NCBI GenBank assembly: GCA_027020665.1
Contig: JALUVJ010000094.1
Location: forward strand, 1-56,998
Length of the DNA: 56,998 nucleotides
Reading direction: 5' to 3'
Source: Nitrospira sp.
GTDB lineage: Bacteria; Nitrospirota; Nitrospiria; SBBL01; JAADHI01
The notes below the pieces were generated by a model that was given only the letters and a program-made list of their open reading frames with translations, was not told the origin of the DNA and searched no databases. Position 1 is the stretch's first letter; each line of letters opens with the position of its first letter. Both the position numbers and the translations under genes were made by a program. This document shows positions 739 to 52,720 of this stretch, in pieces.

Positions 739-1932
739 ATGCTCTCCCGGCCCCTGTGCTCTTTGTTTTCCTTAAAATCAAACGACAAAGGATGCCCGGT
801 TTTTGTATGGTTTTGTACCTTCGCCGTCTTCTTTTCGGGATGTCGCACGGCCATTCCGAAAATTTCTGTGCGCGGCATGATGATGGGTGAAGTGATTCAG
901 ACGACCGTCGATTCGGAAATTGCGCGTTATTACCTCGAAAATTATCTTCAAAACCAAGACCGGGATGAGGCACTGGATAAAAAAATCGATGCATTTTACC
1001 GGCAATATCAAAACCGTACCTTAAATCGTGATGACCTCAAAAAGATTTCGGCCGAGACTTCAACCGATTTTGCAGGACTTTTTTGGGCGGAACACCTCTA
1101 TCAAGATAAAAAAAATAGCGCACTTCAGGAAAAGTTTCATAAAAATCTGTCCGCACTGCGTGCGACGAGCCCGGCACAGGCCGTGATTGCAAACGCCGGC
1201 TGTTGCATGCTTTTGTTTGTGCCCGGTTGGGACTACGTCGCCTCCGGACCGTTTACGGGGGCGGACCTGGCACGTCCCATGCGCATCACCGCCGCATTGG
1301 GCATCGAAAGCCTTTTTATCCCCCTCAATCCCCACGGCGGCGTGGAAGAAAATGCGGATTTGATTCGTCGGGTTGTTCAAGAACAAGCCGCTCAGGAAAA
1401 AGCAATCATTCTCGTGGGCCCCAGTTCGGCGGGTCCGGCCATCCACCTGGGTCTGGCCCAAAAACACCCGCAGGAAGCCCGGCAAGCCGTCAAGGCGTGG
1501 ATTAACCTTGCGGGCATACTGCAAGGCACGCCTTTGGTGGACCATTATCAGACCTGGCCGAGATCATGGCTTTTGCAACTGGCCCTCTGGTGGAAGGGCT
1601 GGGAAAAAGACAAGGTCCTGAGCATGTCCATGAAAAGCAGCCGTGCGCGATTCAAACAACTCACCTTGCCCAAAGACCTTATTGTGATTAATTACATCGG
1701 CCTTGCGCTTTCGGGCGACATCACGGCGCTTGCGGCGGAAAACTATGCGATGCTTCGAAACAAAGGGCCAAATGACGGACTCACGCTGCTGCCGGACAGT
1801 ATTGCGCCCGGAAGCAGCACGATCGTGGCCTTGAACAGCGATCATTTTTTTAATGAAGATCCTGAAATCGAACTGAAGACGATTGCCTTGACACAGGTGC
1901 TTTTCGCACTGCTTGCATCGCAGTCAAAATAG
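739..1932 (+). CDS. Lipoprotein-like alpha/beta-hydrolase family protein
   Basis: A 397-residue protein. The N-terminus has a hydrophobic stretch ending in FFSGC near residues 31-35, which looks like a lipobox, so the mature protein would be a lipid-anchored envelope protein. The rest resembles an alpha/beta-hydrolase: LLFVPGWDY as the first strand, ILVGPSSAGPAIHLGLA as a nucleophile elbow-like turn, NDGLTLLPDSI as the likely acid region and LNSDHFF near the C-terminus as the likely catalytic His. The elbow is not a canonical GxSxG, so activity is uncertain. It is the second gene of a two-gene unit with zero spacing to the small membrane protein. Confidence 0.6.
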   Translation: MLSRPLCSLFSLKSNDKGCPVFVWFCTFAVFFSGCRTAIPKISVRGMMMGEVIQTTVDSEIARYYLENYLQNQDRDEALDKKIDAFYRQYQNRTLNRDDLKKISAETSTDFAGLFWAEHLYQDKKNSALQEKFHKNLSALRATSPAQAVIANAGCCMLLFVPGWDYVASGPFTGADLARPMRITAALGIESLFIPLNPHGGVEENADLIRRVVQEQAAQEKAIILVGPSSAGPAIHLGLAQKHPQEARQAVKAWINLAGILQGTPLVDHYQTWPRSWLLQLALWWKGWEKDKVLSMSMKSSRARFKQLTLPKDLIVINYIGLALSGDITALAAENYAMLRNKGPNDGLTLLPDSIAPGSSTIVALNSDHFFNEDPEIELKTIALTQVLFALLASQSK

Positions 1933-2060
1933 AAAACCTTGTTTCCATGGGAGGTTTTCTCTCAACGGTCAAGTCCCAAGAACGCGGCATAAAACCTTTT
2001 ACCGTAGTTCAAGATCGGTAACGGGCCAATCAAAGCAATCGATTTTCCCAACTCTTCACC

Positions 2061-4013
2061 TTAAGGCAAGCGATAACGCTGCTCCTGATACATTTTTGAA
2101 GTCCAGAGCACATGCGCCAAGGCCGTTTTTATAAACGCATCCGAATGATCTGCCGAAGCCGCCAAGGTTTTATTTTGATAAACAAAAGACTGCGGGGCTT
2201 TCCGGGGCAAAAAGACGGCAACCTTGTCACCTACCATGTAAGCAAAATGCTTTTCATATTGAAATAAAGCCCGACCGGGCACTTCTTCGGGAACCTGCGT
2301 CAGATCGCGTCCAATCATGGGATGCTCCGAGGTAATGCCCATCAAAGAAAGGAGCGTCGGCGGCAGGTCGATTTGACTCGAAATTTTTGAATAGACCGCA
2401 GGTTTGACCTCACCGCCCAAACCGGTAATCAAGGCGGGAATTTGAAAATGTTTAATGGGCACCAAGGTATCGCCGTAAACCCTGGAGTCATGATCGGCCA
2501 CGACCAAAAAAAGTGTGTTCTTCCAATACTTGGATTTTTCGGCCCGCGCAAGAAATTGTCCAACGGCATAGTCGGCATATTTTACTGCGTTTCTGCGTGT
2601 AAAAGCAGGTGTTTCGACCGGCTCAATCCGACCGTCGGGATATTCAAAAGGGGAATGGAAAGACGAAGTGAAAACGAGAGAAAAATAAGGCCCGTCTTCT
2701 TTTTCGAGCAAGCGTGTATGGGCTTTTTCAAAAAGGTCTTCATCCGAAACGCCCCATGTGCCCAAAAAAACGGGATCATCGTAGTCATTGATATCAATAA
2801 CGCGGTCAAAACCATTGCCCAAAAAGAAACGCCGCATGTTGTCAAAGTGGCTTTCGCCGCCATAAATAAATTCTGTGGTATATCCCAGGTTTTTTAAGGT
2901 CCGCGCGATGGTGTAAAATCCCGTTTGAGATTTTTCCAGCTTCACGACACTGCGAGATGGCGATGGCGTAAAACCTGCGGAAATGGCTTCAATGCCTCGG
3001 ACGGAGCGGGTGCCCGTCGCATACATTGATGTAAACCAAAGCCCTTTTTTGCTCCATTTATCCAATTCCGGGCTGAGGTCATCACCACCCAGCGTTGAGA
3101 CAAATTGCGCCCCCAAACTCTCTTCAAGCACAATCACCAGATTGGGGTGTCGATCTCTTTGAAAGGAGGGAATCTGTTGATGGAGCGAGGGGATTTCATC
3201 ATTTGTAAACGCATCGGGGGCAATCAGTGCGGCCTCTCGCACTCTTCGGATTATTTCCTCATCTTCCAATTTGCCATAAATATCCCCCTTGACTTCGTGT
3301 TTGAGATTGTAAATCGCAAACAGTACGTTATACGTTGAATTTAAAGCCAAGTCATTGACAAGGTGGTCGTTTGAAAAAGAGGCGATGCTGGGATTTGCCG
3401 GACGATGCGCAAGGTTTGAACGAATGCCCAAAAACAAAATAAGGCCGACCGCGGGGAAGGCCAACACGCGTTTGGACCACGGCCAAATGACGGCCTCATC
3501 AAATAGCCTCTTGTAGAAGCGACCGCCATAAATCGCGGTCGCCGTCATCAGTCCGGCGGCAATAAAAAGTTGGGGTTTGTAGCTTGCCCACAGGGTGCCG
3601 AACACTTCTTTGGGATAAATCAGATATTCGACAAAAATCCGGCTGGGCCGTGTATCGTATTCAACAATATAAGACGGAGTCGAAACTTCCATAAACACAA
3701 ATAAAAGACTGGAAGCCATGACCCAAAACCGGGAAAAGTTCTTGACAATGCGACGCAAGGCTCCGATGTCCGGAACCAGAAAATAAAGCACAACAGGAAG
3801 GGCTAAAAACTGAAACAACAAAATGGTATCAATCCGCACTCCGATGGCAAGCACCGACAAAATACCATCGACGGCAATAACACGATCCCATTGCCAAATC
3901 ATAAAAAGCAGGCGGGCGGTACTCAAGGCACTGAGCCCAAGCAGGTAAAGCATCAGAAAAGGCCAGACGGGACCCATTTTTCGTTTTGCTTGCAATATCA
4001 CTTGCTTAAACAT
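2061..4013 (-). CDS. LtaS/MdoB-like phosphoglycerol transferase (sulfatase superfamily)
   Basis: A 650-residue membrane enzyme. About five N-terminal transmembrane helices (residues about 15-190) are followed by a sulfatase-fold domain (about 290-610) that should face the periplasm. Metal- and catalysis-related motifs are visible: NLVIVLEES (metal Glu), YATGTRSVRGIEA (nucleophilic Thr region) and VVADHDSRVYG (metal Asp-His). The architecture matches lipoteichoic acid synthase and periplasmic glucan phosphoglycerol transferases, which move phosphoglycerol from phosphatidylglycerol. In a diderm the likely target is a periplasmic glycan or lipid, but the acceptor cannot be read from sequence. 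It is monocistronic and faces the neighbouring plus-strand genes. Confidence 0.8.
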   Translation of the reverse strand: MFKQVILQAKRKMGPVWPFLMLYLLGLSALSTARLLFMIWQWDRVIAVDGILSVLAIGVRIDTILLFQFLALPVVLYFLVPDIGALRRIVKNFSRFWVMASSLLFVFMEVSTPSYIVEYDTRPSRIFVEYLIYPKEVFGTLWASYKPQLFIAAGLMTATAIYGGRFYKRLFDEAVIWPWSKRVLAFPAVGLILFLGIRSNLAHRPANPSIASFSNDHLVNDLALNSTYNVLFAIYNLKHEVKGDIYGKLEDEEIIRRVREAALIAPDAFTNDEIPSLHQQIPSFQRDRHPNLVIVLEESLGAQFVSTLGGDDLSPELDKWSKKGLWFTSMYATGTRSVRGIEAISAGFTPSPSRSVVKLEKSQTGFYTIARTLKNLGYTTEFIYGGESHFDNMRRFFLGNGFDRVIDINDYDDPVFLGTWGVSDEDLFEKAHTRLLEKEDGPYFSLVFTSSFHSPFEYPDGRIEPVETPAFTRRNAVKYADYAVGQFLARAEKSKYWKNTLFLVVADHDSRVYGDTLVPIKHFQIPALITGLGGEVKPAVYSKISSQIDLPPTLLSLMGITSEHPMIGRDLTQVPEEVPGRALFQYEKHFAYMVGDKVAVFLPRKAPQSFVYQNKTLAASADHSDAFIKTALAHVLWTSKMYQEQRYRLP

Positions 4014-4255
4014 CCGAATAAATTCCAGCTGTTGTTATTGGCCGATTCCCCTACCGATTCCGATCCGCATAATAATGATAAAAACCCTGCCGAAAAAGCA
4101 ATCATCCATGAGATATTATTTGTTGCATCCATATCAATACCGCATTGTCGATATTTGAAAATCAATAGAGGCAAGTCGCGACCGGCCCACATTGCATCTA
4201 CTGCGCGGAATCCTATTCAGACTTTCAATGGCCTTCCCCGGATAAGACCGAAGAG

Positions 4256-4741
4256 ATGAACTCGCAAAAAAACGACATCAGGCCTTTAGGTCTCTTTGAA
4301 TCAAAAAAGAGTTTCCTGATCTCCCTTTTGTCAATGAGTGTGATCTTGGCCTTCTATCATCAATGGTATGAAATTTTGGTGAACAGGCCGCAGGATTTTG
4401 TCTCAACTTTTTATCAAAATTTCCCCCTGACGACCTTGCAATCCTTCATCAGTCTGCTGCCGCTGCTTTTTCCTTTCTATACTTTTATTGTACCGTCTTA
4501 GGTCGTGGCCGGTTTGGAAACGCTTTTTTTTGTTTGTCTTGCTTGCGATCGGAACAACGCTGCTCGAAGAATTTGTCGAATTTTACATCCCGATCAATTT
4601 TTGAGGGTACACCGCTCCGCCCTCGTTGCCTTAAAACAGGTTAAAGAAATAAGATCGCTGGGTTCGGGTCGCCTGAAATTGATGCTTTCCGACGGATCGG
4701 AACAAGATGTGAGCCGCTCTTATTCTCAGGAAACCCGATAA
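4256..4741 (+). pseudogene. Decayed membrane-anchored LytTR regulator
   Basis: Remains of a membrane-linked LytTR DNA-binding regulator. The first 81 codons (4256-4501) give two hydrophobic helices. The TM region then continues in the +1 frame from the T-rich run near 4466-4480 (VWKRFFLFVLLAIGTTLLEE) and stops at 4605-4611. The original frame resumes with DQFLRVHRSALV and GRLKLMLSDGSEQDVSRSYS, the C-terminal half of a LytTR domain. The N-terminal half of LytTR is missing. At least two frame changes plus an internal deletion are needed to explain this, so I call a pseudogene. The reading from 4505 alone would make a truncated LytTR peptide. Confidence 0.7.
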
Positions 4742-4835
4742 AAACTGCTCGGAAGAGAAGCGCAATAAAGAAGATGCGTGCAAAGACAACATTCCTGTTT
4801 GTTTATTGAAAAAAGATATGTTATAAGCTCCGATT

Positions 4836-5210
4836 ATGGTAGATAAAAGGCAGCACATCCGTGTTCCCTTCTCGGGAAAAGCGAGGCTCTCCGCCGAGGA
4901 TACCACGCCGGTTGATGTAACCATCAGCAATATGAGTCTCGGCGGTCTGCTTTTTCACACTGCTTCCGTTTTTGATTTAGGCAAACGCGTCACCATTCAC
5001 ATCAGTGGTGTTTTTGAGGAAAAAACCTTCCGGGAAATGGTCACGGGAAAGATTGTCGCCGTGCATCGCGGCCCTGCGGGCAACTCCTTCGGCATCCGTT
5101 TTTTATCCTACCTGAATGAAGAAAAGTCACCCTGCCTCTATGGCTGGGTGGACAGTCACGAAGGAAAACCCATTCCTTCCTTTTTAAGAAACAGCACAGG
5201 CGCCGTCTGA
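4836..5210 (+). CDS. PilZ domain protein
   Basis: A 124-residue single-domain protein. The signature residues for c-di-GMP binding by PilZ are present: RQHIRVPF near residues 5-12 (RxxxR) and SNMSLGGLLF near residues 29-38 ([D/N]xSxxG). It probably acts as a cytosolic c-di-GMP receptor or adaptor. Its TGA overlaps the ATG of the next lipoprotein gene (TGATG at 5208-5212), so the two are translationally coupled. No diguanylate cyclase or phosphodiesterase of the GGDEF/EAL type is seen in the window. Confidence 0.85.
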   Translation: MVDKRQHIRVPFSGKARLSAEDTTPVDVTISNMSLGGLLFHTASVFDLGKRVTIHISGVFEEKTFREMVTGKIVAVHRGPAGNSFGIRFLSYLNEEKSPCLYGWVDSHEGKPIPSFLRNSTGAV

Positions 5211-5686
5211 TGCGCGGGCTGAGCATGGGCAACGCCCAAAACGGGACATCCCTCCCAGCCTCGCTTTTGCTTGCCTGCTTCCTCAAAATCACGATTTGCG
5301 TCCTGCTGTTCCTTGCGATGTCGGGCTGCGTCCGAAACGGTTCAACCCGGCTTTCGCTGCCCAAATCACCCGTTCCCTACGATCAGGCCTGGAAAGCCTC
5401 GCTTGCCGCCAGTCGGCTTTTTTATGACCGCATTGTCATTGAAGATAAAAACAAAGGGTACTTCCAAACCCACTGGCAAACACATCAAGTCGGCGTACTC
5501 ATCGGAACCCCTGTCAAAAGAAGCCGCTTGATCGGTCGTGTGGCCAGCCAAGACCCTTTTCGCCTCGATCTTGATATGGAGCAGCAAGCCTTTTCCCTCG
5601 AGTTGGGACAGTGGGTTGCCGATCCGCCGGACAAAAAACGTCTCAACGAGATTAAGGAAAGATTGCGGGCCCGACTGCGTTTTTAG
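5210..5686 (+). CDS. Small lipoprotein, unknown function
   Basis: A 158-residue protein with a hydrophobic signal segment and lipobox LAMSGC (Cys near residue 41). The mature part of about 117 residues has no domain I recognise. The N-terminus is long for a signal peptide, so an internal start at Met6 or later is possible; the ATG at 5210 was chosen because it overlaps the PilZ stop. Neighbours are PilZ upstream and comM 23 bp downstream. Confidence 0.65.
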   Translation: MRGLSMGNAQNGTSLPASLLLACFLKITICVLLFLAMSGCVRNGSTRLSLPKSPVPYDQAWKASLAASRLFYDRIVIEDKNKGYFQTHWQTHQVGVLIGTPVKRSRLIGRVASQDPFRLDLDMEQQAFSLELGQWVADPPDKKRLNEIKERLRARLRF

Positions 5687-5709
5687 GGTGCTCTGATTTA
5701 GGGTGAACC

Positions 5710-7242
5710 ATGCTGGCGAAAATCAACAGCGCGGTATTATCAGGTGTAGACGCCCGCCTGATTGATGTCGAGATCGACTTGTCTCAGGGCCTGCCCCTGC
5801 TCTCCATCGTGGGTTTGCCGGATCTTGCCGTCAAAGAAAGCAAAGACCGGCTGCGCTCCGCCATTAAAAATACCGGCTTTCATTTTCCCGTCAAAAAGAT
5901 TACCGTCAACCTCGCGCCCGCCGACCTCAAAAAAGAAGGCTCCGCCTTTGATCTTCCCATCTCACTCGGGATTTTGGCTGCGGAAGGGGTCATCAAACGG
6001 GAGCGCGTCAAGCGCTACCTCATCGTCGGAGAACTTTCACTCGACGGCCGCATCAAAGCCATTAAAGGGGCCTTGCCCATTGCCATTCTGGCCAAGAAAC
6101 TGGGTTTGCAGGGGGTGATCCTGCCGACCGGAAACGGGGCCGAAGCCGCCGTCGTTTCCGGCGTAAAGATCTTCGGCATGGAGACCTTGCCTCAGGTTGT
6201 CGGGTTTTTAAACGGACAAAATGAACACAATGCGGTTTCCATTGATGTGCCGAAACTGTTTTCAGAAGTATCGAACGATGCCGAAGATTATGCCGAAGTC
6301 AAAGGACAGGCCCACGCAAAACGCGCCCTGGAAATTGCGGCCGCAGGCGGACACAACATCCTCATGGTGGGTCCGCCCGGTTCGGGGAAAACGATGTTGG
6401 CGAAACGTTTCCCATCCATTCTGCCGCGCATGCATTTTGAAGAATCCCTTGAAGTCACACAAGTCCACAGCGTGACGGGTCTTTTGTCGTCTGCCGTCCC
6501 GCTCTTGTTGGCGCGTCCCTTTCGTGCGCCCCATCACAGTATTTCAGATGCCGGACTCATTGGCGGCGGGCAAATCCCCCGGCCTGGGGAAGTCAGCCTT
6601 GCCCACAACGGCGTGCTTTTTTTGGACGAATTGCCCGAATTTAAACGCAATGTACTGGAAGTTTTGCGACAGCCTCTGGAGGAAGGTGAGGTCACCATCG
6701 CTCGCGCGAGCGGCTCACTAACCTATCCCGCACGTTTCATGTTGCTTGCGGCCATGAACCCCTGTCCCTGCGGCTATTTTACCGATCCGCAGCGCAATTG
6801 TGTGTGTGCTCCCAGTGCCATCCAGCGTTACCGCTCAAAAATTTCCGGGCCCTTGCTGGATCGCATCGACCTGCATATCGAAGTCCCCGCCGTGCCTTTT
6901 CGGGATCTTACGCTTGAGACGCAGGACGAAGCTTCCGACACCATTCAAAAACGCGTGCAAATCGCAAGAACTTTTCAATCCAACCGCTATCAACCCGAAG
7001 GCCTGCGCTGCAACGCCCAACTCGGCCCAAAACAACTTAAAAAACACTGCAAAATCGATGAAGCCAGCAAACGACTGGTGGAAACGGCAATGGAACGACT
7101 CGGGCTTTCCGCACGTGCCTACAATCGCATTATCAAGGTTGCACGCTCAATCGCCGATCTCGACCAACGTGAAAATATCTCCAGTGCGGATATTTCCGAA
7201 GCCGTGCAATATAGAAGCCTTGACCGAAAAATCCTTACTTGA
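5710..7242 (+). CDS. comM: ComM/YifB-family Mg-chelatase-like AAA+ ATPase
   Basis: A 510-residue protein of normal family length. An N-terminal ChlI-type domain (residues about 1-170) is followed by an AAA+ module with Walker A GPPGSGKT near 220-227 and Walker B-like [10 protein letters not shown] near 300. A Cys-rich turn [17 protein letters not shown] and a C-terminal Mg-chelatase helix domain (about 410-505) follow. ComM of Vibrio is a hexameric helicase that promotes branch migration during natural transformation; the family is very widespread, so that role is by homology only. The start ATG at 5710 begins the [15 protein letters not shown] motif that is standard for the family. Confidence 0.93.
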
Positions 7243-7253
7243 TTCAAGATAAA

Positions 7254-7278
7254 CCCACAATCAGCGATAGATTTTGCG
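7254..7278 (+). repeat. Dispersed GCGAT-centred palindrome, copy 2
   Basis: CCCACAATCA, then GCGAT, then AGATTTTGCG: a degenerate copy of the element best preserved at 38947-38971. It lies 12 bp after the comM stop. Confidence 0.6.
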
Positions 7279-7404
7279 TGAAACCGTCAAGTCGCCTGAA
7301 GGACACGGCCTTATCGGCCATTTTGGCGACCGGGGCCCACTTACCTGTACGGTGAGGCGTAAAATGACCGGTAACGCAGTATAAGCAGGCGAACCGGCGG
7401 TTTC
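7279..7404 (+). other. Intergenic stretch with possible RNA structure
   Basis: Between comM and the glycosidase-like gene. GTCGCC (7291-7296) pairs with GGCGAC (7325-7330) around an inner GGCC/GGCC hairpin (7307-7319), followed by a second arm set with ACCGGT and ACCGGC. I match it to no riboswitch family I know. It could be a leader RNA of the gene at 7522, or chance. Confidence 0.3.
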
Positions 7405-7521: not shown

Positions 7522-9792
7522 ATGTGGCTCAAATGGCTCCCTTGGCGTTTTTTGATTCGGCAGGTCGCCGAGGCGCACGATTTTTTAGATCCCATTGCTT
7601 TGCAATCGCGTCTGCATCGTTTTGCACAGCCCTCGGAAGTTACGGAGCCGGTCGAATTGCTTCGTGCGGGTGTACTCTTTCACGCGCGCGGGCTCATCAA
7701 TACCCGCGCGATTCAGCATAATCTCGACTGGGTCTGGCCTTTTTGGGTGGAACGCCAGTTCAACCCCCTGGATGAAGCCTTTATTCCGAGGGCGTTTTCC
7801 ATCACACACGTCAATCTCACGCACCGAAACTGGACGGCCGTCGGCCTGCCTGATTTTGACGAACTGCCCATTGTCGATGCGAGAGGGCTGGTCACGCCGT
7901 TTTTAGACGGCTGGTCCCTGGATTTTTGGGTCATGACAAAAGCAGGAAAAACACTGATTCCTTCAAAATTGGAACAGATTTCTCAGAAACTTGTGTTTGA
8001 TACCGGGCTTGCCGTCGAAACCCGGGCTGCTTCCGAGGGACTTGCCTTGAGCAGCCGCGTGGAAGTCCGGCATAATGAAGACGGGCGTTTTTGCCGCATT
8101 GCACTGCGTGCGGATGCCGAAATAGACGGCGCCCTGGTCGTCACACTGCGGCCCTACAACCCGGAGGGCGTCAGTTTTATCCATGAAGCGGCGCTTTCAC
8201 AGGATCGTTCGTTCTGGCTGGTCGATGACGACCGGCAGGTTTTGTTCAGTACACCGGTCGATCATTCCCTGTTTTCAAACTACCGCCGGGGCGACGTTTT
8301 TAGCACGCTTTTTTCCGAGACAGAACAAATTGAAATGCAATGCGATGTCGGCATGCTTACCGCCGCCGCGCTTTTCGATCTAACGCCGGGTCAAACAAAA
8401 TCCGTCGAAGTCAACATCCTGCTTGAGGAAGAAAACGAATCCCGGCACAGCCATCCCGCTTTGTCTTCGGATTCTGAAAAACCCGCCTGGGATGAGGCCT
8501 TATCGGACCATTGCGCCTTGCAGATCCCGGATCAAAAGGTCCGGTTTTTATATGATGCCGCCTTGCGGTCCATGGTGCTCCATTCACCGGAAGATGTCTA
8601 TCCCGGCCCCTACACCTACAAACGCTTCTGGTTCCGGGACGCCGCTTTTATCCTGCACGCCATGCTTTGCACGGGCTTGACCGCACGTGCCGAACGGGTT
8701 TTGGATCGTTTCCCCGCCCGGCAAACCCGCGCCGGCTACTTCCATTCGCAGGACGGGGAATGGGACTCCAACGGCCAGGCGCTTTGGATCTTAAATCGCT
8801 TTTGTGAATTGACCGGCCGTCCGCCCAAAGAAAGCTGGCGCAAATCGGTAAAAAAAGCGGGGGAATGGATCATCAAAAAACGTCATCCCGATGACCTGGA
8901 TGCCTTGCACGCCGGGCTGCTGCCCGCCGGGTTCAGTGCGGAACACCTCGGCCCGAACGACCACTATTATTGGGATGATTTCTGGGGCATCGCCGGGCTC
9001 TTGGCTGCGGACGATTTATGTCAAAAATATGAAGATCCGGTTTCAGCCGAACGTTTCCGGCACGCAGCCGCACACTTTATGGCCGCAGTGGAACGCAGTC
9101 TCAAAAAAAGCAGGGCGCTTCGCAGTTGGGACGGCATTCCCGCCTCCCCCTATCGTCGGATGGACGGCGGCGCGATCGGCTCACTCGCAGTCGGCTACCC
9201 CTTACAGCTTTGGACGGCAGACGATGTCCGGCTCCGCGACACCGTTCATTTTTTGCTGGAACATTGTTTTGTAAAGAGCGGTTTTTTTCAAGACATGATT
9301 CACTCGGGCATTAATCCTTATTTAACGCTTCATGTCGCACAAGTGCTGCTGCGCGCGGAAGATGCCCGGTTTTTTGATTTGCTGCAATCGGTCGCACAAT
9401 CGGCTTCCGCTACCGGACAATGGCCGGAAGCCATCCACCCCCGGACCGGCGGCGGCTGCATGGGGGACGGCCAGCATATCTGGGCCGCCGCAGAATGGGT
9501 TTTGATGATCCGAAACTGTTTTGTACGCGAAGAAGGACAGCGCCTCATCCTGGCCTCCGGCATTTCCGAAGAGTGGCTTAAAACAGAAAAGCCTCTTTCC
9601 TTCGGCCCCGCACCGACCCCCTTTGGTGATCTTTTTATCAGGATCAAGGCGGCAAATGGAACAGTGCGGGTGCAATGGCAAGGGGACTGGCGGAAAGATC
9701 CGCCGCGCATTGAAGTGCGACTGCCGGGCCGTGAACCGGTTTATCCTGAAAACGACACCGCAGAAGTTGTCGTCACCAAAATCGGCGATTGA
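7522..9792 (+). CDS. (alpha/alpha)6 glycosidase-like protein
   Basis: A 756-residue protein without a signal peptide, so probably cytosolic. The N-terminal half (to about residue 320) looks like a beta-rich domain. The C-terminal half looks like the six-hairpin toroid of GH15/GH63/debranching-type enzymes: PYTYKRFWFRDAAFILHAML near residues 365-384, EWDSNGQALWILNRF near 413-427 and HYYWDDFWGIAGLLAADD near 481-498. The substrate cannot be told; an alpha-glucan or a heteroglycan is possible. A good SD (AGAGGAGA) precedes the ATG. Its TGA lies inside a copy of the dispersed palindrome (9776-9799), so the last residues (KIGD) come from that repeat. A GT4 gene follows 82 bp later. Confidence 0.6.
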   Translation: MWLKWLPWRFLIRQVAEAHDFLDPIALQSRLHRFAQPSEVTEPVELLRAGVLFHARGLINTRAIQHNLDWVWPFWVERQFNPLDEAFIPRAFSITHVNLTHRNWTAVGLPDFDELPIVDARGLVTPFLDGWSLDFWVMTKAGKTLIPSKLEQISQKLVFDTGLAVETRAASEGLALSSRVEVRHNEDGRFCRIALRADAEIDGALVVTLRPYNPEGVSFIHEAALSQDRSFWLVDDDRQVLFSTPVDHSLFSNYRRGDVFSTLFSETEQIEMQCDVGMLTAAALFDLTPGQTKSVEVNILLEEENESRHSHPALSSDSEKPAWDEALSDHCALQIPDQKVRFLYDAALRSMVLHSPEDVYPGPYTYKRFWFRDAAFILHAMLCTGLTARAERVLDRFPARQTRAGYFHSQDGEWDSNGQALWILNRFCELTGRPPKESWRKSVKKAGEWIIKKRHPDDLDALHAGLLPAGFSAEHLGPNDHYYWDDFWGIAGLLAADDLCQKYEDPVSAERFRHAAAHFMAAVERSLKKSRALRSWDGIPASPYRRMDGGAIGSLAVGYPLQLWTADDVRLRDTVHFLLEHCFVKSGFFQDMIHSGINPYLTLHVAQVLLRAEDARFFDLLQSVAQSASATGQWPEAIHPRTGGGCMGDGQHIWAAAEWVLMIRNCFVREEGQRLILASGISEEWLKTEKPLSFGPAPTPFGDLFIRIKAANGTVRVQWQGDWRKDPPRIEVRLPGREPVYPENDTAEVVVTKIGD

Positions 9793-9874: not shown

Positions 9875-11164
9875 ATGAATATTCTCACGATGAGCAATAC
9901 CTTCACGCCCCATGTCGGCGGCGTCGCCCGCTCGCTTGAGCGGTTTTGCGCCGAATTCAGAGCATTGGGGCACCGTGATCTTGTGGTCGCCCCCACCTTT
10001 GAAGACATGCCGGAGCATGAAGTCGATGTCGTGCGCATCCCGGCCATTCAGCATTTTAACGGCAGTGATTTTTCCGTGCGTCTGCCCATTCCCGCGCTAC
10101 TTTTCCCACAGCTTGAAAAATTCAAGCCGGATATCGTTCACGCACATCATCCCTTTCTTTTGGGCGATACCGCGCTGCGCATCGCGGCCCTGCATCAAAT
10201 CCCCCATGTCTTCACGCACCACACGCTTTATGAACAATACACCCACTACGTGCCGGGAGATTCCGAGGCCTTAAAACGCTTTGTCATTGAATTGTCAACA
10301 GGTTACGCCAACCTCTGCGACGGCGTGATCGCGCCCAGCGAAAGCATCGCGGCCCTGCTCCAAAAAAGAGGCGTCACCACGCCTGTCACGGTTATTCCGA
10401 CCGGTGTCGGGCACGCATGGTTCGTCCCGCAAGATGGCATGGCCCTAAGAGAAAACCTGGGCATTCCGAAAGAGGCCTTTCTGCTCGGACACGTGGGTCG
10501 GCTTGCGCCGGAAAAAAACCTCGGTTTTCTGACGGATGCCGTCATTCATTTCATCCAACAACACAAAACGGCACATTTTCTGGTGGCGGGCACGGGGCCG
10601 TCCGAGTCCGCCATGCGGGATCGTTTTGAAAAAACAGGGCTGGCCGACCGCTATCATCAGATCGGTCAGGTGGCCCTGGAGACCCTGGTTAGGGCCTACA
10701 ACGCGATGGATGTTTTTGTGTTTGCTTCACAAAGCGAGACACAGGGCATGGTTTTGACCGAGGCGATGGCGGCGGGCAGCCCTGTCGTCGCCGTGGATGC
10801 CTCCGGTGTGCGCGAAGTCGTCGAAGACGGCGTGAACGGACGCCTGCTTTCCGAAGAAGCCGTGGAACCCTTTTCATCTGCCATTACCTGGCTCTTCGGG
10901 CTTTCGCCTGCCAAGCGGCGCGCACTTCAAGCCGCCGCGCGGGAAACGGCGGATCGATTCTCAATTACCCGCTCAACAGATCGTGTGTTGAAACTTTATG
11001 CCGACCTCATTGCACAGGTACAGGTCAAACAGGAAATCGAAGGCAGCCATTGGCTCTCAATCTTGCCCTTGATTGAAACGGAATGGGATCTCTGGGTCAA
11101 CCGCGCGCATGCCCTGCAAAGTGCACTTCACGAAGAAAAAGGCAACAGGACGCAGGAAGCATGA
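9875..11164 (+). CDS. GT4-family glycosyltransferase
   Basis: A 429-residue GT-B glycosyltransferase. The N-terminal Rossmann domain has the acceptor-side glycine loop TFTPHVGGVARSLERF and DIVHAHHPFLLGD; the C-terminal domain has GHVGRLAPEKN and the nucleotide-sugar site SQSETQGMVLTEAMAAGSPVVA with the EX7E pattern. Similar GT4 proteins glycosylate lipids such as diacylglycerol or phosphatidylinositol, or extend glycans. The next gene starts inside its stop (ATGA, 11161-11164), which ties it to a phosphodiesterase-type enzyme and makes a lipid or phosphoglycan substrate plausible. The donor and acceptor are not readable. Confidence 0.85.
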   Translation: MNILTMSNTFTPHVGGVARSLERFCAEFRALGHRDLVVAPTFEDMPEHEVDVVRIPAIQHFNGSDFSVRLPIPALLFPQLEKFKPDIVHAHHPFLLGDTALRIAALHQIPHVFTHHTLYEQYTHYVPGDSEALKRFVIELSTGYANLCDGVIAPSESIAALLQKRGVTTPVTVIPTGVGHAWFVPQDGMALRENLGIPKEAFLLGHVGRLAPEKNLGFLTDAVIHFIQQHKTAHFLVAGTGPSESAMRDRFEKTGLADRYHQIGQVALETLVRAYNAMDVFVFASQSETQGMVLTEAMAAGSPVVAVDASGVREVVEDGVNGRLLSEEAVEPFSSAITWLFGLSPAKRRALQAAARETADRFSITRSTDRVLKLYADLIAQVQVKQEIEGSHWLSILPLIETEWDLWVNRAHALQSALHEEKGNRTQEA

Positions 11165-13536
11165 TCGGGCGAATTGAGCAATTTTTCTTAAAATTACGCC
11201 GCGCGATCAGCCGAAGCGAATGGAACGTCCGTCTGCTGAAGCTGCCCAAAGCCAAAGGCACCGAAGCCGAGGCGGGCCTTGTCCTGATTCAAATTGACGG
11301 TCTTGCCCGCCCTCAGATTGAACAGGCCCTCAAAAACCGTCACATGCCTTTTCTTAAAAAACTGATTCAAAAAGAAGACTATACCTTGCACACCCTTTAC
11401 AGCGGTCTTCCCAGCAATACGCCCGCATTTCAGGGTGAATTATTTTACGGCGTGCGCGCTTGTGTGCCTGCCTTCAGTTACCTGAATCGCCGGACCGGCA
11501 AGATTTTTCGGATGTATGATCCGGAAGTCGCCGCGACCCTTCAGGTAAAATTGAGTCAAGAAGGCGAAGGACTGCTGCAAAACGGAAGTGCGTATTCCAA
11601 TATTTTTTCAGGCGGCGCAAAAGAAAGCATCTTTTGCGCCGCAACGCTTGACTGGCGGAAAATCCTGCGTGGAAGCAGAGTCTTTTCCCTGGTGATTTTT
11701 ATCTTCTCCAATGCCTGGAGTTTTGTCCGTGTCGGCGGTTTACTGATACTGGAATTTGTCTTGGCCCTCATCGATTTTGTTCGCGGACTCATTGAAGGCA
11801 AAAACCTTTGGAAAGAGTTGCGATTTATCCCGGCCCGCGTGGCAGTTTCCATCCTGCTAAGAGAACTCGTGACCATGAATGCCATGCTGGATACGGCCCG
11901 CGGCCTTCCTGTGGTTCAACTGAACTTTCTCGGATACGATGAACAGGCCCATCGCCGCGGACCTTCGTCCGCTTTTGCACACTGGACCCTAAAAGGCATT
12001 GATGATGCGATCAAGCGGATTTGGAAGTCGGCAAAACGATCCGGGCGGCGGGACTATGAGGTCTGGATTTATTCGGATCATGGTCAGGAAACCTCCATCC
12101 CCTATAAAGTAGCGCACGGCCGGTCAATCGAAGAGGCTGTTTCCGAAATTTTTGATCCCCCGCATCACAAAACAGAAGATCAAAAAGGGGGCCACCCGCA
12201 TCGCGCACAATGGCTGGGGCTGCCGATTGATCGGTGGTGTTCCTGCGAATCGCAGCCCGCAAAGCCCCCGCTTCCGGCGGAAACAGTGGTCGCGGCCATG
12301 GGGCCGGTGGGACATATATATCCGGGCAGTGCCTCAGCTTGCGAAGACCGCTTTGCAAAAGCCAAAATGATTTTTGAAAAAACGAAAACCCCCATGGTAG
12401 CCCTTACCGCGCCGGACGGCCTTGTCCACATGATTACGGAAGAAGGGACCTTTCAGCTTCCGGAGGAGGCCGAAGCCGTTTTGGGTCGGGATCATCCTCA
12501 TATGAAACAAGTGGCCCAAGACATTGTCAATCTTTGCAAACATCCCGACAGCGGAGACTATGTGCTTTTTGGCTGGTCAAAAAAAGGCGTCTCGCTCAGC
12601 TTTGCCGGAGAAAACGGTGCCCATGCCGGGCCGGGCCCTGCTGAAACCAGTGCTTTTGCCTTGTTACCCGCCACGGCTCCCCTTCGCGTGCCTTCACAAC
12701 GTTCTCTGCGGGCGCTGGATTTGAGAGAAGACGTGCGCCAATTTTTAGGCCGGGCGCCCGCCGCATTTCCCGGCCGTCGCCGAAAGCAAAGCCGAAAACA
12801 AAAAACACTGCGCATTATGACCTACAACGTGCACAGTTGCATCGGCATGGACGGCAAACTCTCCCCCGAACGCATTGCCCGCGTGATCGCGCAGTATGAT
12901 CCGGACATCGTCGCCCTGCAGGAATTGGATGTGGGGCGCCGCCGCACGGATGCCACCGATCAGGCGGAAGCCATTGCGCGCACGCTGGAGATGGGCTTTC
13001 ACTTTCACCCCGCCATGCAGCTTGAAGAGGAAAAATACGGCGACGCCGTGCTCAGTCACCATCCCATCCGCCTGATCCGCTCGGCGCAACTGCCGCGCCT
13101 GTCGGGACGGCCTTTTCTCGAACCCCGGGGCGCGCTCTGGGTGGGGATTGAAGTGGAGGGGGTCGAATATCAACTCATCAACACGCATTTGGGCTTATCC
13201 CGGCAGGAACGCCTGCTTCAGTGCGAAGCCTTGCTTGGGCCGGGTTGGCTGGGACATGCCGATTGTCAGGCCCCCATCATTTTTTGCGGCGATTTCAATG
13301 CCGGGCCGAAATCCGGCGTGTGCAAACTCTTCGGCACCGTGCTGCATGACGCGCAGGATGTCCTGCTGAACCACCGCCCGCAAAGCACCTGGTTCGGCCG
13401 TTATCCCATCAATCGCATTGACCACATTTTTGTCGATCAAAGCATCGCGGTTCACGCCGTTGAAGTGCCTCGAACCGTGCTGACCCGAAAGGCCTCGGAT
13501 CACCTGCCGCTCATTGTTGATGTGTCTTTGCAGTAA
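11161..13536 (+). CDS. Alkaline-phosphatase-superfamily phosphodiesterase fused to EEP hydrolase
   Basis: A 791-residue two-enzyme fusion, started at the ATG overlapping the GT4 stop. Residues about 38-530 form an alkaline-phosphatase/NPP-like phosphodiesterase: metal Asp in LIQIDG, nucleophile Thr in PSNTPAFQ, YDEQAHRRGP, IYSDHGQE and a late metal His in ENGAHAGPGPAE. A hydrophobic pair at about 174-212 within this domain suggests membrane insertion. Residues about 550-790 are an endonuclease/exonuclease/phosphatase domain: MTYNVHS, VALQELD, THLGLS, CGDFNAG and SDHLP, all key residues present. EEP members cleave phosphodiesters or phosphomonoesters in nucleic acids, inositol phosphates or lipids. 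The cluster suggests lipid or glycan turnover, but this is inference. Confidence 0.8.
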   Translation: MIGRIEQFFLKLRRAISRSEWNVRLLKLPKAKGTEAEAGLVLIQIDGLARPQIEQALKNRHMPFLKKLIQKEDYTLHTLYSGLPSNTPAFQGELFYGVRACVPAFSYLNRRTGKIFRMYDPEVAATLQVKLSQEGEGLLQNGSAYSNIFSGGAKESIFCAATLDWRKILRGSRVFSLVIFIFSNAWSFVRVGGLLILEFVLALIDFVRGLIEGKNLWKELRFIPARVAVSILLRELVTMNAMLDTARGLPVVQLNFLGYDEQAHRRGPSSAFAHWTLKGIDDAIKRIWKSAKRSGRRDYEVWIYSDHGQETSIPYKVAHGRSIEEAVSEIFDPPHHKTEDQKGGHPHRAQWLGLPIDRWCSCESQPAKPPLPAETVVAAMGPVGHIYPGSASACEDRFAKAKMIFEKTKTPMVALTAPDGLVHMITEEGTFQLPEEAEAVLGRDHPHMKQVAQDIVNLCKHPDSGDYVLFGWSKKGVSLSFAGENGAHAGPGPAETSAFALLPATAPLRVPSQRSLRALDLREDVRQFLGRAPAAFPGRRRKQSRKQKTLRIMTYNVHSCIGMDGKLSPERIARVIAQYDPDIVALQELDVGRRRTDATDQAEAIARTLEMGFHFHPAMQLEEEKYGDAVLSHHPIRLIRSAQLPRLSGRPFLEPRGALWVGIEVEGVEYQLINTHLGLSRQERLLQCEALLGPGWLGHADCQAPIIFCGDFNAGPKSGVCKLFGTVLHDAQDVLLNHRPQSTWFGRYPINRIDHIFVDQSIAVHAVEVPRTVLTRKASDHLPLIVDVSLQ

Positions 13537-13542
13537 TGTCGG

Positions 13543-15390
13543 CTACGCTTTTCCTTGCAAACACTTGATTCTTTCACCCATCGGCGGCACCGCTTCCGGA
13601 TCAATGTGAACGTCAAGCAGGGTCGGCCCCCGGCGGGTGCATATTTTTTCAAAATCAAGCCGATCCCACGCTTCCCAGGAGGTGATCGTGTGAGCCGCTG
13701 CGCCCATGGCCCGCGCCATCGCGGCAAAATCGACGGGAGGCAAAATGTATCCGATGGGCTCCGCCCCGCTCATGCGCTGACCGTGTTTGACCATGCCGAG
13801 TGCGCCGTCATTCAAAATCACAAAGGTGATCGGCAGGGCTTCGCTGACAGCCACCGTCAACTCCTGGCCGCTCATCAAAAAACTGCCGTCCCCGGTGATA
13901 CAAACCACGGCTTTGCCGGGTGCCCCCAGCGCCACACCCGCTGCGGCCCCGATGCCCCATGCCATTGCTCCGTAGCCCATCCCGATGTGATACCGGCCTT
14001 CTTTTTTGATATCGAGGTGATGAATGGACCACGCCCAGGCGTTCCCCGCGTCTGCGAGAAAACGCGTCTCGGACGGGAAACGCTGCGCCAGTTCCCGCAT
14101 CAGACCTTGCGGGTTAAGTGCACCGGCCTCGGCATCACCCCTCTCAATACGCGGCGTCCTCGGTTTTGAAGACCGTTTGCCGTCTGATCCCTTCCGAGTC
14201 CGGCCTTGGAGAAAAACTTCATTGTGCTCTTTCAGCAACAAGTTCCCCTTAGCATGATCGCCCCCGCTTTTTCGCAAAGAAAATAAGAGTCGGCGAAAGA
14301 GGGCGTCCAGATTCCCCAAAACATGCAGGCGCGCTGTTGGAGAACGCAAAAAAGCTTCCGGGTTTTCGTCCACATGCACCATTTTTTCATTAAAAAGCCG
14401 CTGATCCCACCTATTTGTTGTTATTTCGTCGAGGCGTGTTCCCACGGCAAGAATGAGATCCACTTCCGGATCAAAGAGGGTCTCGCTTGCACCGGCATGG
14501 CCTGCAAAACCGAAAATACCCCGATAACGCGGATGCCGGGTATCGATACTCCCTTTGCCGGCGGAGGTCGTTATAACGGGCATGTCGAAACAATCGGATA
14601 AAGCCAAAATCGGTGCGATGGCATCTCGGCAGCCCTCTCCCACAAGCAGGACCGCGCGACGTGAACACACGAGCATCTGCAAAAGTGCCTGTAGCTGCGT
14701 TTCATCAAAGGCCTTCCCGGCACGCAGCTGCGGGACGGGGAAGGCCTGCGCTCTGTTTTCGGGCAGAGGCATCTTCATCAAGTCCGCCGGCAGACTCAAA
14801 TGAACCGGCCCGCGCGGGTGCTGAAACGCGCGCACGACGGCTTGATAAAGTTTATGCCGTACCTGTTCCGGATGAGAAACAAGGCTGTTATAGCGTGTGC
14901 AGTGTTGAAACATGCCCACCGTATCAATGGCATCACCCGAAGACTCTTGCAAAGCCAAACGGCCAAAACCCGGCAAAGCCGTCTGCGCGGTCAATACCAA
15001 CACCGGGATTTGCTCGGTATACGCAGAGCAAATCCCGGTAATCAGGTTGGTCGCCCCCGGCCCTGTTGTCGCGCAACAAACGCCGAGCTTGCCTGTTTCG
15101 CGTGCGTACCCTTCTGCCATAAAGGCCGCACCGGCCTCATGGCGGGCCACGATAAGACGCGGTCCGTCTCCGCCCGATTGAGACAGGTGACGGGCGATCG
15201 CACTCAAAAAAGGCTCGATGGCGCCTCCCGGCACGCCGAAAATAGAGTCAACCTTGAGACGCGCAAGAAAATCAACAAGGCCGTCGGCATAATTCAAATG
15301 AAGGTCGGATCGCGCTTTTGACTCAAGCGAGACCGCCGTCACTTCCTTTTGTATTAGGTCTAAATGAATGGGCTGCGATATCATTTTCAT
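13543..15390 (-). CDS. Acetolactate synthase-like ThDP-dependent enzyme
   Basis: A 615-residue ThDP enzyme with the three-domain layout of the acetohydroxyacid synthase family. The catalytic Glu region is ARHEAGAAFMAEGYAR, followed by CATTGPGATNLITGI; the C-terminal ThDP/Mg motif is GDGSFLMSGQ ending with ILNDGALGMVKHGQ. No regulatory subunit gene (ilvN) is adjacent, so it may be a catabolic acetolactate synthase or another carboligase rather than the biosynthetic enzyme. It converges on the phosphodiesterase gene with 6 bp between stops and diverges from hydB. An in-frame ATG at 15384 has better SD spacing (GAGGAG) and is an equally good start. Confidence 0.8.
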   Translation of the reverse strand: MKMISQPIHLDLIQKEVTAVSLESKARSDLHLNYADGLVDFLARLKVDSIFGVPGGAIEPFLSAIARHLSQSGGDGPRLIVARHEAGAAFMAEGYARETGKLGVCCATTGPGATNLITGICSAYTEQIPVLVLTAQTALPGFGRLALQESSGDAIDTVGMFQHCTRYNSLVSHPEQVRHKLYQAVVRAFQHPRGPVHLSLPADLMKMPLPENRAQAFPVPQLRAGKAFDETQLQALLQMLVCSRRAVLLVGEGCRDAIAPILALSDCFDMPVITTSAGKGSIDTRHPRYRGIFGFAGHAGASETLFDPEVDLILAVGTRLDEITTNRWDQRLFNEKMVHVDENPEAFLRSPTARLHVLGNLDALFRRLLFSLRKSGGDHAKGNLLLKEHNEVFLQGRTRKGSDGKRSSKPRTPRIERGDAEAGALNPQGLMRELAQRFPSETRFLADAGNAWAWSIHHLDIKKEGRYHIGMGYGAMAWGIGAAAGVALGAPGKAVVCITGDGSFLMSGQELTVAVSEALPITFVILNDGALGMVKHGQRMSGAEPIGYILPPVDFAAMARAMGAAAHTITSWEAWDRLDFEKICTRRGPTLLDVHIDPEAVPPMGERIKCLQGKA

Positions 15391-19754: not shown

Positions 19755-22526
19755 GTGCCGCACGCGCAGAGGGCCGATATCCGCGTCATCGGCATCGGCA
19801 ACCCCTTTCGGCGGGATGACGGTGCGGGCATTGAAGTTGCGCGGCGTTTGAAGGCGCGGCTTTCTCCGGGTATTACGGTCATCGAGCAAAGCGGAGAAGC
19901 CGCCGCCTTGATGGATGCCTGGCAAGGGGCCGAAACCGTGATCCTGATCGATGCGCTTGTTTCCGGCGCAGCGCCCGGCGCGCTGCGGTGCATTGACCTT
20001 CGGACGGAGAAACTCCCGGCCGGACTGTGCCGCGCTTCGAGCCACGCCTTGGGTGTGGCAGAGGCCGTCGCGCTGGCCCGGCAATTCAAGCAGCTTCCCG
20101 CCCGGCCCGTGCTGATCGGGATTGAAGGACAGGATTTTTCCGAGGGGACGGAATTTTCCGGGGCGGTCGCAGGGGCGATTGAAAATGCCGTCCGCTTGGC
20201 AATCGATACGGCCGGGCTTCAAGATCTTGAAGCCCGGCAACACAAAACCCAGCCGCAAAGCCTGCGAATTGTGGTTGAAGGCACGGTGCAGGGCGTTGGC
20301 TTCCGCCCCTTTGTGTACCGTTTGGCGCGCTCGCTTGACCTGAAGGGCTGGGTTGAAAACAGTCCGAAAGGTGTATTGATTGCAGCCGAAGGCAGTCCCG
20401 GCCGCCTCGATATCCTGCTCAAACGCATCCGGCGGGACGCCCCGGTGCACAGTGTCATCACAGGCATCACAAGCACCGCGCTGAAAACACAGGGGGGGCC
20501 GGATTTTGAAATCCGTCAAAGCAAAGTTTCCGGGAATAAACAAACCGGCGTCCTGCCGGATATCGCCCCCTGCAACGCCTGTCTTCAGGAATTGTTTGAT
20601 CCCCGAAACCGGCGGTACCGCTATCCCTTTATCAACTGCACGCACTGCGGGCCGCGTTTTTCCATCACCGAAGCCCTTCCCTATGACCGCGCGCGGACCA
20701 GCATGAGCCCCTTTACACTGTGCGCGGCCTGCCGCGCGGAATATCATGATCCGAATGACCGGCGTTTTCATGCCCAAGCAAATGCCTGTGCGGACTGCGG
20801 GCCGCAACCGGCCTACCTGGGGCCCGACGGGAAACCGCAATCAACAAACGAAACCGCCCTGCGTGATACCGCCGCAGCACTCCGGGCCGGGCATATTGTC
20901 GCGGTGAAGGGCATCGGCGGGTTTCATCTCATGGCGGACGCGCGAAACGAAGGGGCCGTCCTGCGCTTGCGAGAAAGAAAGAAGCGGCCCGCAAAACCTT
21001 TCGCGCTGATGTACCCGGCGTTGAAAGCTGTGTATCGCGATTGCATCGTTTCCCGGGCCGAAACGGCGCTGCTCGGCGCGCCTGCAGCTCCCCTCGTCCT
21101 GCTCCGGCGGCAAACAAGTGCCCGCATCGCGCCCGCCGTTGCGCCGGATAACCCGGACTTGGGCGTCATGCTGCCTGCTTCTCCTTTGCACCACCTGCTC
21201 ATGCGGGCACTTGGATTTCCGCTCGTCGCCACCAGTGCGAACCGTTCGGGTGAACCGATTTGCGCAAACGAGGCAGACGCGCGGAAGCGTCTCAAAGGGA
21301 TTGCAGACGGTTTTCTCATCCACAATCGCGCCATTGTCCGGCCCTTGGATGATTCGGTGCTGCGGGTCACGGCAGGCCAAACCGCGGTGCTGCGCCGCGG
21401 GCGTGGGCTGCCGCTGCTTTCGCTTCCGCTGAATGTGCCTTGCCCGCCCCTCCTGGCCGTGGGCGGGCACTTGAAAAACACCATTGCCCTGACACACGGA
21501 CGGCACATCCTCCTCAGCCCTCACATCGGCGATCTGGAATCGGCCGCCGCGATTCAACGCCGGGATCACACGATTGAAGCCCTGCAAGGTCTCCACGGCA
21601 CGCAGGCCCGCCATATTGCCTGCGACGCCCATCCCGATTATGCTTCAAGTCAATGCGCGGCCCGGCAGGGCCTGCCCCTGACACCGGTTCAGCACCACCA
21701 CGCGCACGTCGCCGCCTGCATGGCCGAGCACGGCTTAAAGGGCGAGGTCTTCGGCATTGCCTGGGACGGTGCCGGCTTCGGTCCGGACGGCACGGTGTGG
21801 GGCGGAGAATTTCTGCGGGCTTCCGCGCGATCGTTTGAACGCTTGGCCTTCCTGCGGCCCTTCCGGCTGCCGGGCGGCGAATCGGCCCAGCGCGAACCCC
21901 GGCGCGCCGCGCTGGGCTTGCTTTACGAATTGTACGGGGACAAGCTTTTTGAAACGGCCCGCTTCGCCCCGCTTGCGGCGTGTTCCTCCGCTGAAAAAAA
22001 GATCCTTCAAAGCATGCTTAAGCGAGGGATCAATGCCCCCTACACATCCGGCATGGGACGGCTTTTTGATGCGATTGCATCGCTATCGGGACTTCGGCAG
22101 GGGCCCTGTTTCGAGGGAGAGGCCGCGATGGCACTCGAATTCGCCGCCCGGAAGACCGCCGCCGAAAACCCGGATGAATCCTACGCCTTCGATCTCCGGC
22201 CCGGAATGCCTTGTTGTGTCGATTGGGCGCCCATGCTGCACGGAATCCTGCGCAATATGGAAGATGCCGTCCCGGTCAGCCGCATTGCTAAAAAATTTCA
22301 CCGCAGCCTGCTTGACATCATGGTGGCACTTGCGCGACGCTTTGCCGAAAACCGCATCGTGCTCACCGGCGGTTGTTTTCAAAACCGCATCTTATTGGAA
22401 CAGGGGGTTGCACGCCTGCGTGAAGCGGGTTTTGAAGTCTACTGGCCCCAGCAGGCTCCCCCCAATGACGGTGGCATTGCCTTGGGACAGGCCTTTGTCG
22501 CGGCGCAGCAACTCGGAGCAAAATAG
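19755..22526 (+). CDS. hypF: Hydrogenase maturation endopeptidase-HypF fusion
   Basis: A 923-residue protein joining two maturation enzymes. Residues about 9-155 are an M52/HycI-type endopeptidase: IGIGNPFRRDDGAG, LIDAL and SSHALG supply the nickel-binding Asp21, Asp66 and His97. After a short linker (about 156-168), residues about 169-923 are a complete HypF: acylphosphatase (VEGTVQGVGFRPFVYRLA), two zinc fingers (C273/C276/C295/C298 and C323/C326/C345/C348), a YrdC-like domain and a Kae1-like carbamoyltransferase with HHHAHVAACMAEH. HypF makes the cyanide-ligand precursor from carbamoyl phosphate; the peptidase trims the large subunit last. The reading frame is unbroken. The start is GTG, and hypC follows 2 bp after the stop. 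Confidence 0.92.
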   Translation: MPHAQRADIRVIGIGNPFRRDDGAGIEVARRLKARLSPGITVIEQSGEAAALMDAWQGAETVILIDALVSGAAPGALRCIDLRTEKLPAGLCRASSHALGVAEAVALARQFKQLPARPVLIGIEGQDFSEGTEFSGAVAGAIENAVRLAIDTAGLQDLEARQHKTQPQSLRIVVEGTVQGVGFRPFVYRLARSLDLKGWVENSPKGVLIAAEGSPGRLDILLKRIRRDAPVHSVITGITSTALKTQGGPDFEIRQSKVSGNKQTGVLPDIAPCNACLQELFDPRNRRYRYPFINCTHCGPRFSITEALPYDRARTSMSPFTLCAACRAEYHDPNDRRFHAQANACADCGPQPAYLGPDGKPQSTNETALRDTAAALRAGHIVAVKGIGGFHLMADARNEGAVLRLRERKKRPAKPFALMYPALKAVYRDCIVSRAETALLGAPAAPLVLLRRQTSARIAPAVAPDNPDLGVMLPASPLHHLLMRALGFPLVATSANRSGEPICANEADARKRLKGIADGFLIHNRAIVRPLDDSVLRVTAGQTAVLRRGRGLPLLSLPLNVPCPPLLAVGGHLKNTIALTHGRHILLSPHIGDLESAAAIQRRDHTIEALQGLHGTQARHIACDAHPDYASSQCAARQGLPLTPVQHHHAHVAACMAEHGLKGEVFGIAWDGAGFGPDGTVWGGEFLRASARSFERLAFLRPFRLPGGESAQREPRRAALGLLYELYGDKLFETARFAPLAACSSAEKKILQSMLKRGINAPYTSGMGRLFDAIASLSGLRQGPCFEGEAAMALEFAARKTAAENPDESYAFDLRPGMPCCVDWAPMLHGILRNMEDAVPVSRIAKKFHRSLLDIMVALARRFAENRIVLTGGCFQNRILLEQGVARLREAGFEVYWPQQAPPNDGGIALGQAFVAAQQLGAK

Positions 22527-52511: not shown

Positions 52512-52720
52512 CGCCATGTCTCCTTCAGGATAAACACAGGGTTAAAAAATGAGCACAGTATAGCGCATGTGATTCAGTCTGTCAGGTGGAAATATCCGAT
52601 ACGGCAACTTGGGGAAACCCTGCCTGAGCAGAGCTTCCTCAAGTGATTCCTTTTCCTGCCTATTACATTTTTGTATTTGACAGGACGCCCCGGCATCGGA
52701 TATTGTTATATGCGACCATA

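Follow-up and report, generated by a model that had tools for sequence, protein, structure and literature searches.

Which chemistry would bring two unrelated phosphoester hydrolases together in one polypeptide and set them beside a glycosyltransferase and a glycosidase-like protein? The question is raised by contig JALUVJ010000094.1 of Nitrospira sp. (assembly GCA_027020665.1; genome G000 below), the entire contig being the window analysed here (56,998 nucleotides). Three genes follow one another on its forward strand: a glycosidase-like (GH-like) gene at 7522..9792, a GT4 glycosyltransferase gene at 9875..11164, and a gene at 11161..13536 whose 791-aa product, AP-EEP, joins an alkaline-phosphatase (AP)/NPP-type domain to an endonuclease/exonuclease/phosphatase (EEP) domain. 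The original prediction took them for a module that builds and cleaves a glycan, a glycolipid or a phosphoglycan. We find that the three genes do form a module; among the products proposed, genome context favours a glycolipid, a function that we read from sequence and state as probable at best.

Two phosphoesterase domains in one intact frame

The AP-EEP frame, defined by translation, Pfam matches and orthologue alignment, runs from an ATG at 11161 to a stop codon at 13536 with no internal stops. The longest-open-reading-frame prediction begins at 11083 (817 aa); we place the start at 11161 because the N-terminal MIGRIE... is conserved among orthologues. As originally predicted, this start overlaps the GT4 stop, in an ATGA at 11161..11164 on the forward strand that is kept in five of the six loci read, the sixth (G019) having a 16-nt gap. 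Two families score above their cut-offs within the single chain, PF01663 (Phosphodiest; 41.1 bits against a cut-off of 23, confined to residues 254-314) and PF03372 (Exo_endo_phos; 81.1 bits against 24.5, residues 553-781), and the key residues of both domains are invariant, which bears out the claim of two phosphoester hydrolases in one frame.

The AP/NPP-type domain covers residues 1-531 (11161..12753, forward strand). Residues D46, T87, D260, H264, D306, H307 and H488 are invariant in all 14 sequences compared; from NPP chemistry we take them to be the metal ligands and, for the threonine, the nucleophile. By profile, the nearest solved relative is the Xanthomonas NPP (2gsn; E 2.8e-4), which can be aligned over the motifs D260..H264 and D306-H307. 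The alignment is confined to residues 252-317; of the key residues it takes in those from D260 to H307, and D46, T87 and H488 were assigned from their motifs. Unlike the Xanthomonas enzyme, the window protein carries a fused EEP domain and a hydrophobic helical insert at approximately residues 172-212 (11674..11796, forward strand), recognised by Kyte-Doolittle analysis and as helices in a low-confidence model. The insert corresponds to the hydrophobic pair noticed earlier within the first domain, with a peak at residues 189-207 (mean Kyte-Doolittle 2.1) and a weaker one from residue 173. A hydrophobic peak starting at residues 163-194 is found in 14/14 AP sequences, and a further one starting at 215-244 in 12 of them, the window protein lacking the latter at the threshold used. 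The stretch suggests a possible membrane association of AP-EEP.

The EEP domain occupies residues 548-791 (12802..13533, forward strand). N556, E588, H676, D711, N713, D754, D780 and H781 are invariant in 9/9 full-length fusions, and their catalytic roles are presumably those known from APE1 and TDP2. Structural comparison rests on models of AP-EEP and of the GH-like protein that were each built from alignments of five sequences and are both of low confidence. For AP-EEP (mean pLDDT 51.7), the listed fold matches are all to the EEP domain, which fills the list. Foldseek ranks nocturnin and TDP2 at the top; the structural neighbours also include sphingomyelinases and a mannosyl-6-phosphatase, a sugar-phosphate phosphatase. 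Superposition of the low-confidence EEP model on 4ruw by VIA-align gives a Z score of 21.0 and a root-mean-square deviation (rmsd) of 3.3 over 226 aligned residues.

Distribution of the fusion

An artificial joining of two genes would be the simplest explanation of such a chain. Among 58 relatives including G000, 18 gave a match, comprising five full-length fusions (G000, G002, G003, G007 and G019) and 13 EEP-only proteins. Four further Nitrospirota species have the intact fusion at 56-70% identity, three more have it at 48-49%, and an Omnitrophota metagenome-assembled genome (G408, locus L030) has it at 42%; the eight Nitrospirota fusions and L030 make up our alignment A3. The AP domain is present in eight of 395 Nitrospirota genomes, every time as a full-length fusion with EEP. 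In the phylum of L030, 44 of 384 genomes have a match to the full-length profile at 1e-40, and the match includes all or part of the AP domain in 37 and EEP alone in seven; some Omnitrophota copies are split between contigs or contain stops (two TGA codons in G695, one in G719). A frameshift or assembly artefact is ruled out by the intact frame in many independent assemblies, and in close relatives that bear the AP domain it is always fused to EEP rather than encoded separately.

Stand-alone EEP genes occur in other genomes, some of them beside the same GH-like and GT4 genes. In a tree of 54 EEP sequences, the 38 fused copies make up one side of a weakly supported branch (86/62) and lone Omnitrophota EEPs are nearest to them, a topology in keeping with a single fusion event. 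Two strict peptide patterns run over genome contigs returned four loci; they missed many Omnitrophota copies, and their silence elsewhere is uninformative. A phage origin was also considered and rejected, as viral contigs scanned with A3 yielded 11 pattern matches and no relative.

A three-gene module in two phyla

The GH-like, GT4 and AP-EEP genes stand in the same order in G002, G003, G007, G019 and Omnitrophota L030. Of the 395 Nitrospirota genomes, precisely the eight with the AP domain encode GH-like proteins of 56% identity or more; weaker matches, at most 39% identical and partly incomplete, occur in nine more. The genes also co-occur without linkage: three genomes of family f16 (G058, G067 and G075) carry AP-EEP on a different contig from the linked GH-GT4 pair, while the fourth (G083) is without both. 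Genome G001 retains the GH-like gene and 21 codons of GT4 and has no AP-EEP, so that GT4 and AP-EEP seem to have been lost together. Neither a GH-like gene nor an AP domain was found in G004, G005 and G006.

In the Omnitrophota sample, GH-like genes are present in 71/384 genomes overall and in 35/37 of those with the AP domain (exceptions G448 and G492). Of the 30 best AP-EEP loci in Omnitrophota, 22 are preceded directly by GT4, which in 12 cases is continuous with AP-EEP in a single frame of about 1,200-1,290 aa (six junctions were read); the other eight of the 30 have no GT4 within the 1.5 kb examined. The converse survey, of 1.5 kb downstream of the 30 best GH-like loci, found GT4 in 18, an acyl carrier protein (ACP)-acyltransferase-like frame next in nine (Pfam-checked in two genomes, otherwise assigned by look), AP-EEP directly in one, and none of these in two (L104 and L112). 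GH-like adjoins AP-EEP with no GT4 between them in G772 (L120).

Taken together, conserved order, unlinked co-occurrence, joint absence and GT4-AP-EEP fusions strongly support a gene module of GH-like, GT4 and AP-EEP in two phyla. Both the two-domain architecture and the three-gene co-occurrence, which the original prediction proposed to check in other genomes, were thus found in Nitrospirota and Omnitrophota.

The glycosyltransferase and the glycosidase-like protein

The GT4 protein (429 aa) matches both the N- and C-terminal domains of its fold, PF13439 with 119.5 bits and PF00534 with 112.2 bits. Its closest NCBIfam model, matched across the full length, is alpha-monoglucosyldiacylglycerol synthase (NF049988). 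The same model is matched by 14/14 GT4s tested, with the best E-value among the models listed (3.3e-49).

The GH-like protein (756 aa), whose gene adjoins GT4 in relatives as well, is predicted from its low-confidence model to comprise a beta-sandwich, an (alpha/alpha)6 barrel and a C-terminal beta domain. Seventeen members compared with Pfam gave no family, only single weak matches (the best to GH15, E 0.032, in 1/17). The model resembles (alpha/alpha)6 glycosidases and phosphorylases, and its superposition on 3w5n (GH78) reaches a Z score of 19.7 with an rmsd of 3.6 over 365 residues, again at low model confidence. Seven acidic residues are invariant (D373, E413, D415, E474, E636, D649 and E658). 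The glycosidase-like gene predicted just upstream of GT4 is supported by these fold matches, and its product lies outside the Pfam families.

More distant relatives occur in other settings. In G328 (L060, 8210-13374) the protein that directly follows a GH-like one of 30% identity is 897 aa long. Its C-terminal half is GT4 and its N-terminal half PHP-like by eye, but Pfam gave glycosyltransferase domains only. G274 (L061, 3560-12466) encodes GH-like relatives of about 25% identity and some 1,050 aa in length; by look, these proteins are secreted and their neighbours are transporter-like and GH1-like.

Lipid genes around relatives of the module

We examined 14 further Omnitrophota stretches (L123-L136) chosen around EEP-only or GH-like genes. 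Three of them without an AP domain (L123-L125) contain genes for EEP, cardiolipin-synthase-type phospholipase D (PLD), GH-like, VTT, GT4 and GtrA proteins (by Pfam in L123 and for the PLD of L124, the rest by look). In L126, L127, L128, L131 and L132, an ACP-acyltransferase or look-alike lies between GH-like and GT4. L130, L133 and L134 hold GH-GT4 only, L129 stops short of any GT4, EEP stands in L135 without GH-like, and in L136 AP-EEP lies 1.6 kb before GH-GT4. In Nitrospirota relatives, nine of 13 lone EEP genes are beside an HKD-motif (PLD-motif) gene, one of them confirmed as PLD-VTT. EEP proteins of this group thus often accompany a phospholipid diesterase, a position that is filled in the window by the AP domain.

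L126 also contains, at 1125-7404 and operon-like beside GH-like, genes for an ACP-acyltransferase, a GT4-alpha/beta hydrolase fusion and an AMP-binding/ACP/acyltransferase protein. This run looks like a glycolipid pathway in its own right, and an unstudied one.

Proposed function and its alternatives

We propose that the cluster may be a module for membrane glycolipids, in which the breakdown of phospholipids is coupled to glycosylation of a lipid, a reading that we believe and doubt in about equal measure. The fusion, the module and the lipid-gene context are observed; the substrates, the order of the phosphoesterase steps, the acceptor and the part played by the GH-like protein are inferred. 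Kept at the membrane through its hydrophobic helices, the AP/NPP-type domain would cleave the phosphodiester of a phospholipid, and the EEP domain would act on the remaining phosphate or on a second phosphoester, yielding diacylglycerol (DAG) or a similar lipid alcohol. GT4, translationally coupled to AP-EEP and fused to it in some Omnitrophota, would glycosylate this lipid alcohol; trimming, remodelling or recycling the sugar would fall to the (alpha/alpha)6 enzyme. The exact order of the two phosphoesterase steps is suggested more tentatively than the reading as a whole.

A known pathway offers a partial parallel. PlcP is a PF00149-type metallophosphoesterase, and no PF00149-type match was found by Pfam in AP-EEP, whose phosphoesterase domains are AP and EEP. 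The window differs further from the PlcP-Agt system in that AP-EEP is coupled, and elsewhere fused, to GT4, has a GH-like partner, and shows no convincing Pho box. The likeness lies in a phosphoesterase gene that adjoins a GT4 gene: in SAR11, roseobacters and Pseudomonas aeruginosa PlcP makes DAG that is then glycosylated by the neighbouring GT4, the proposed path leading from phospholipid to DAG to glycosyl-DAG (PMC8231724, PMC4796936, PMC8528852). A second parallel concerns EEP. YbhP is an EEP protein. As in the group of the window, it would be encoded beside a phospholipid enzyme, here a cardiolipin synthase, in the operon ybhP-clsB-ybhN, which is named in PMC9241728. The window has an EEP-fused AP in place of the PLD, together with GT4 and GH-like.

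Several observations weigh against the glycolipid proposal. The window GT4 scores 146.5 bits against NF049988, whose equivalog cut-off is 400, and is not a member. Nucleases and nucleotide phosphatases are among the best structural matches of EEP. PlcP-Agt needs no glycosidase, so the analogy leaves the GH-like protein unexplained. A single genus supplies six of the nine EEP-HKD loci, and the Fisher p-values for co-occurrence (2e-27 and 7e-17) ignore kinship. Trehalose- or glycogen-type genes lie in some neighbourhoods, including a TreT domain in L123. Upstream of GH-like in five relatives, the best Pho box score was in all five cases no better than that of shuffled sequences; the absence of a convincing Pho box speaks against a role in phosphate starvation, in its simplest form.

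The glycolipid proposal also has a bolder form, which we consider doubtful: GT4-AP-EEP would be an assembly-line enzyme for diester cleavage, dephosphorylation and on-the-spot glycosylation, constituting a second, independently evolved route from phospholipid to glycolipid with a dedicated (alpha/alpha)6 partner outside Pfam.

Of the alternatives, a module for a soluble glycoside (a compatible solute or storage sugar) survives best, and we judge it unlikely. GT4 would make a glycoside or sugar phosphate, AP-EEP would dephosphorylate it, and the (alpha/alpha)6 enzyme would hydrolyse or phosphorolyse the product. It is mainly the GH-like protein that keeps this explanation open, since it accompanies GT4 more constantly than any other protein and its model resembles glycoside phosphorylases and glucosidases; the TreT-type gene in L123, stress-type genes (by look) near L030 and the mannosyl-6-phosphatase among the EEP matches point the same way. 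A soluble product, however, would leave unaccounted for both the conserved hydrophobic helices of AP-EEP and the recurring lipid-enzyme partners (PLD, VTT, GtrA and ACP-acyltransferases).

Phosphoglycerol transferases of the AP superfamily are known, and GtrA-type membrane proteins in some loci, together with a phosphoglycerol transferase-like gene on the same contig (2061-4013), could fit a module for a lipid-linked glycan or cell-surface phosphoglycan. GT4 would start or extend the glycan, AP-EEP would transfer or remove phospho-substituents in the manner of LtaS or OpgB, and the GH-like protein would edit the chain. We regard this as quite improbable: the annotated loci showed neither polymerase nor export genes, and the 2061-4013 gene is unmatched beside the cluster in L019-L022. 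Finally, that AP-EEP acts as a phosphodiesterase on nucleotides or nucleic acids and is tied to the sugar genes by accident, as nocturnin and TDP2 at the top of the EEP matches and a nucleotide pyrophosphatase as closest solved AP relative might suggest, is highly improbable given that sphingomyelinases are also among the EEP matches and that two-phylum linkage, unlinked co-occurrence and GT4-AP-EEP fusions make an accident very unlikely.

Neighbouring genes

The gene at 2061-4013 (reverse strand) encodes a sulfatase-family PF00884 protein, a second AP-superfamily enzyme near the cluster; the NCBIfam model that it matches best, phosphoglycerol transferase I (OpgB/MdoB type), is matched below its cut-off. 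The YifB and PilZ genes, like this one, have no match beside the cluster in L019-L022. AP-EEP is adjoined in the window by an acetolactate-synthase-type thiamine pyrophosphate (TPP) enzyme (13543-15390, reverse strand). Near the cluster in L020 (13979-17043; Pfam-checked) and L136 (13882-16889; by look) lies a TPP enzyme distinct from this one (27% identical to it in L020), with an aldehyde dehydrogenase after it. Upstream of GH-like, two relatives of the same genus have genes for a circularly permuted ATP-grasp protein and an alpha-E/transglutaminase protein (L020 1576-5037, by Pfam; L019 967-4425, by look).

Elsewhere in the window are a Mutator-family transposase (26857-27765), a run with RDD, SpoIIM, DUF4350 and DUF58 genes (28018-34801) and a carbohydrate-phosphorylase gene (50346-52517; PF00343 with DUF3417). 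A tRNA called by ARAGORN at 21326-21408 is probably false, as it has a two-base anticodon, lies inside a long protein frame and is unsupported at the Rfam gathering threshold.

Novelty and implications

The individual folds of the module are known. Apparently new are the union of an NPP-type and an EEP domain in one chain, its coupling or fusion to GT4, the uncatalogued (alpha/alpha)6 partner and the occurrence of the whole in two phyla; we found no description of it in the titles and abstract openings of the open-licence literature searched. The natural GT4-AP-EEP fusions present a compact, testable enzyme, and the module would aid annotation in Omnitrophota and Nitrospirota, where EEP, alkaline-phosphatase-family and glycosidase-like protein are three labels as common as they are vague. 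Should the glycolipid proposal be true, it would suggest a lipid role for EEP proteins encoded beside PLD-type genes, and would mean that little-studied phyla renovate their membranes through folds other than those of PlcP-Agt.

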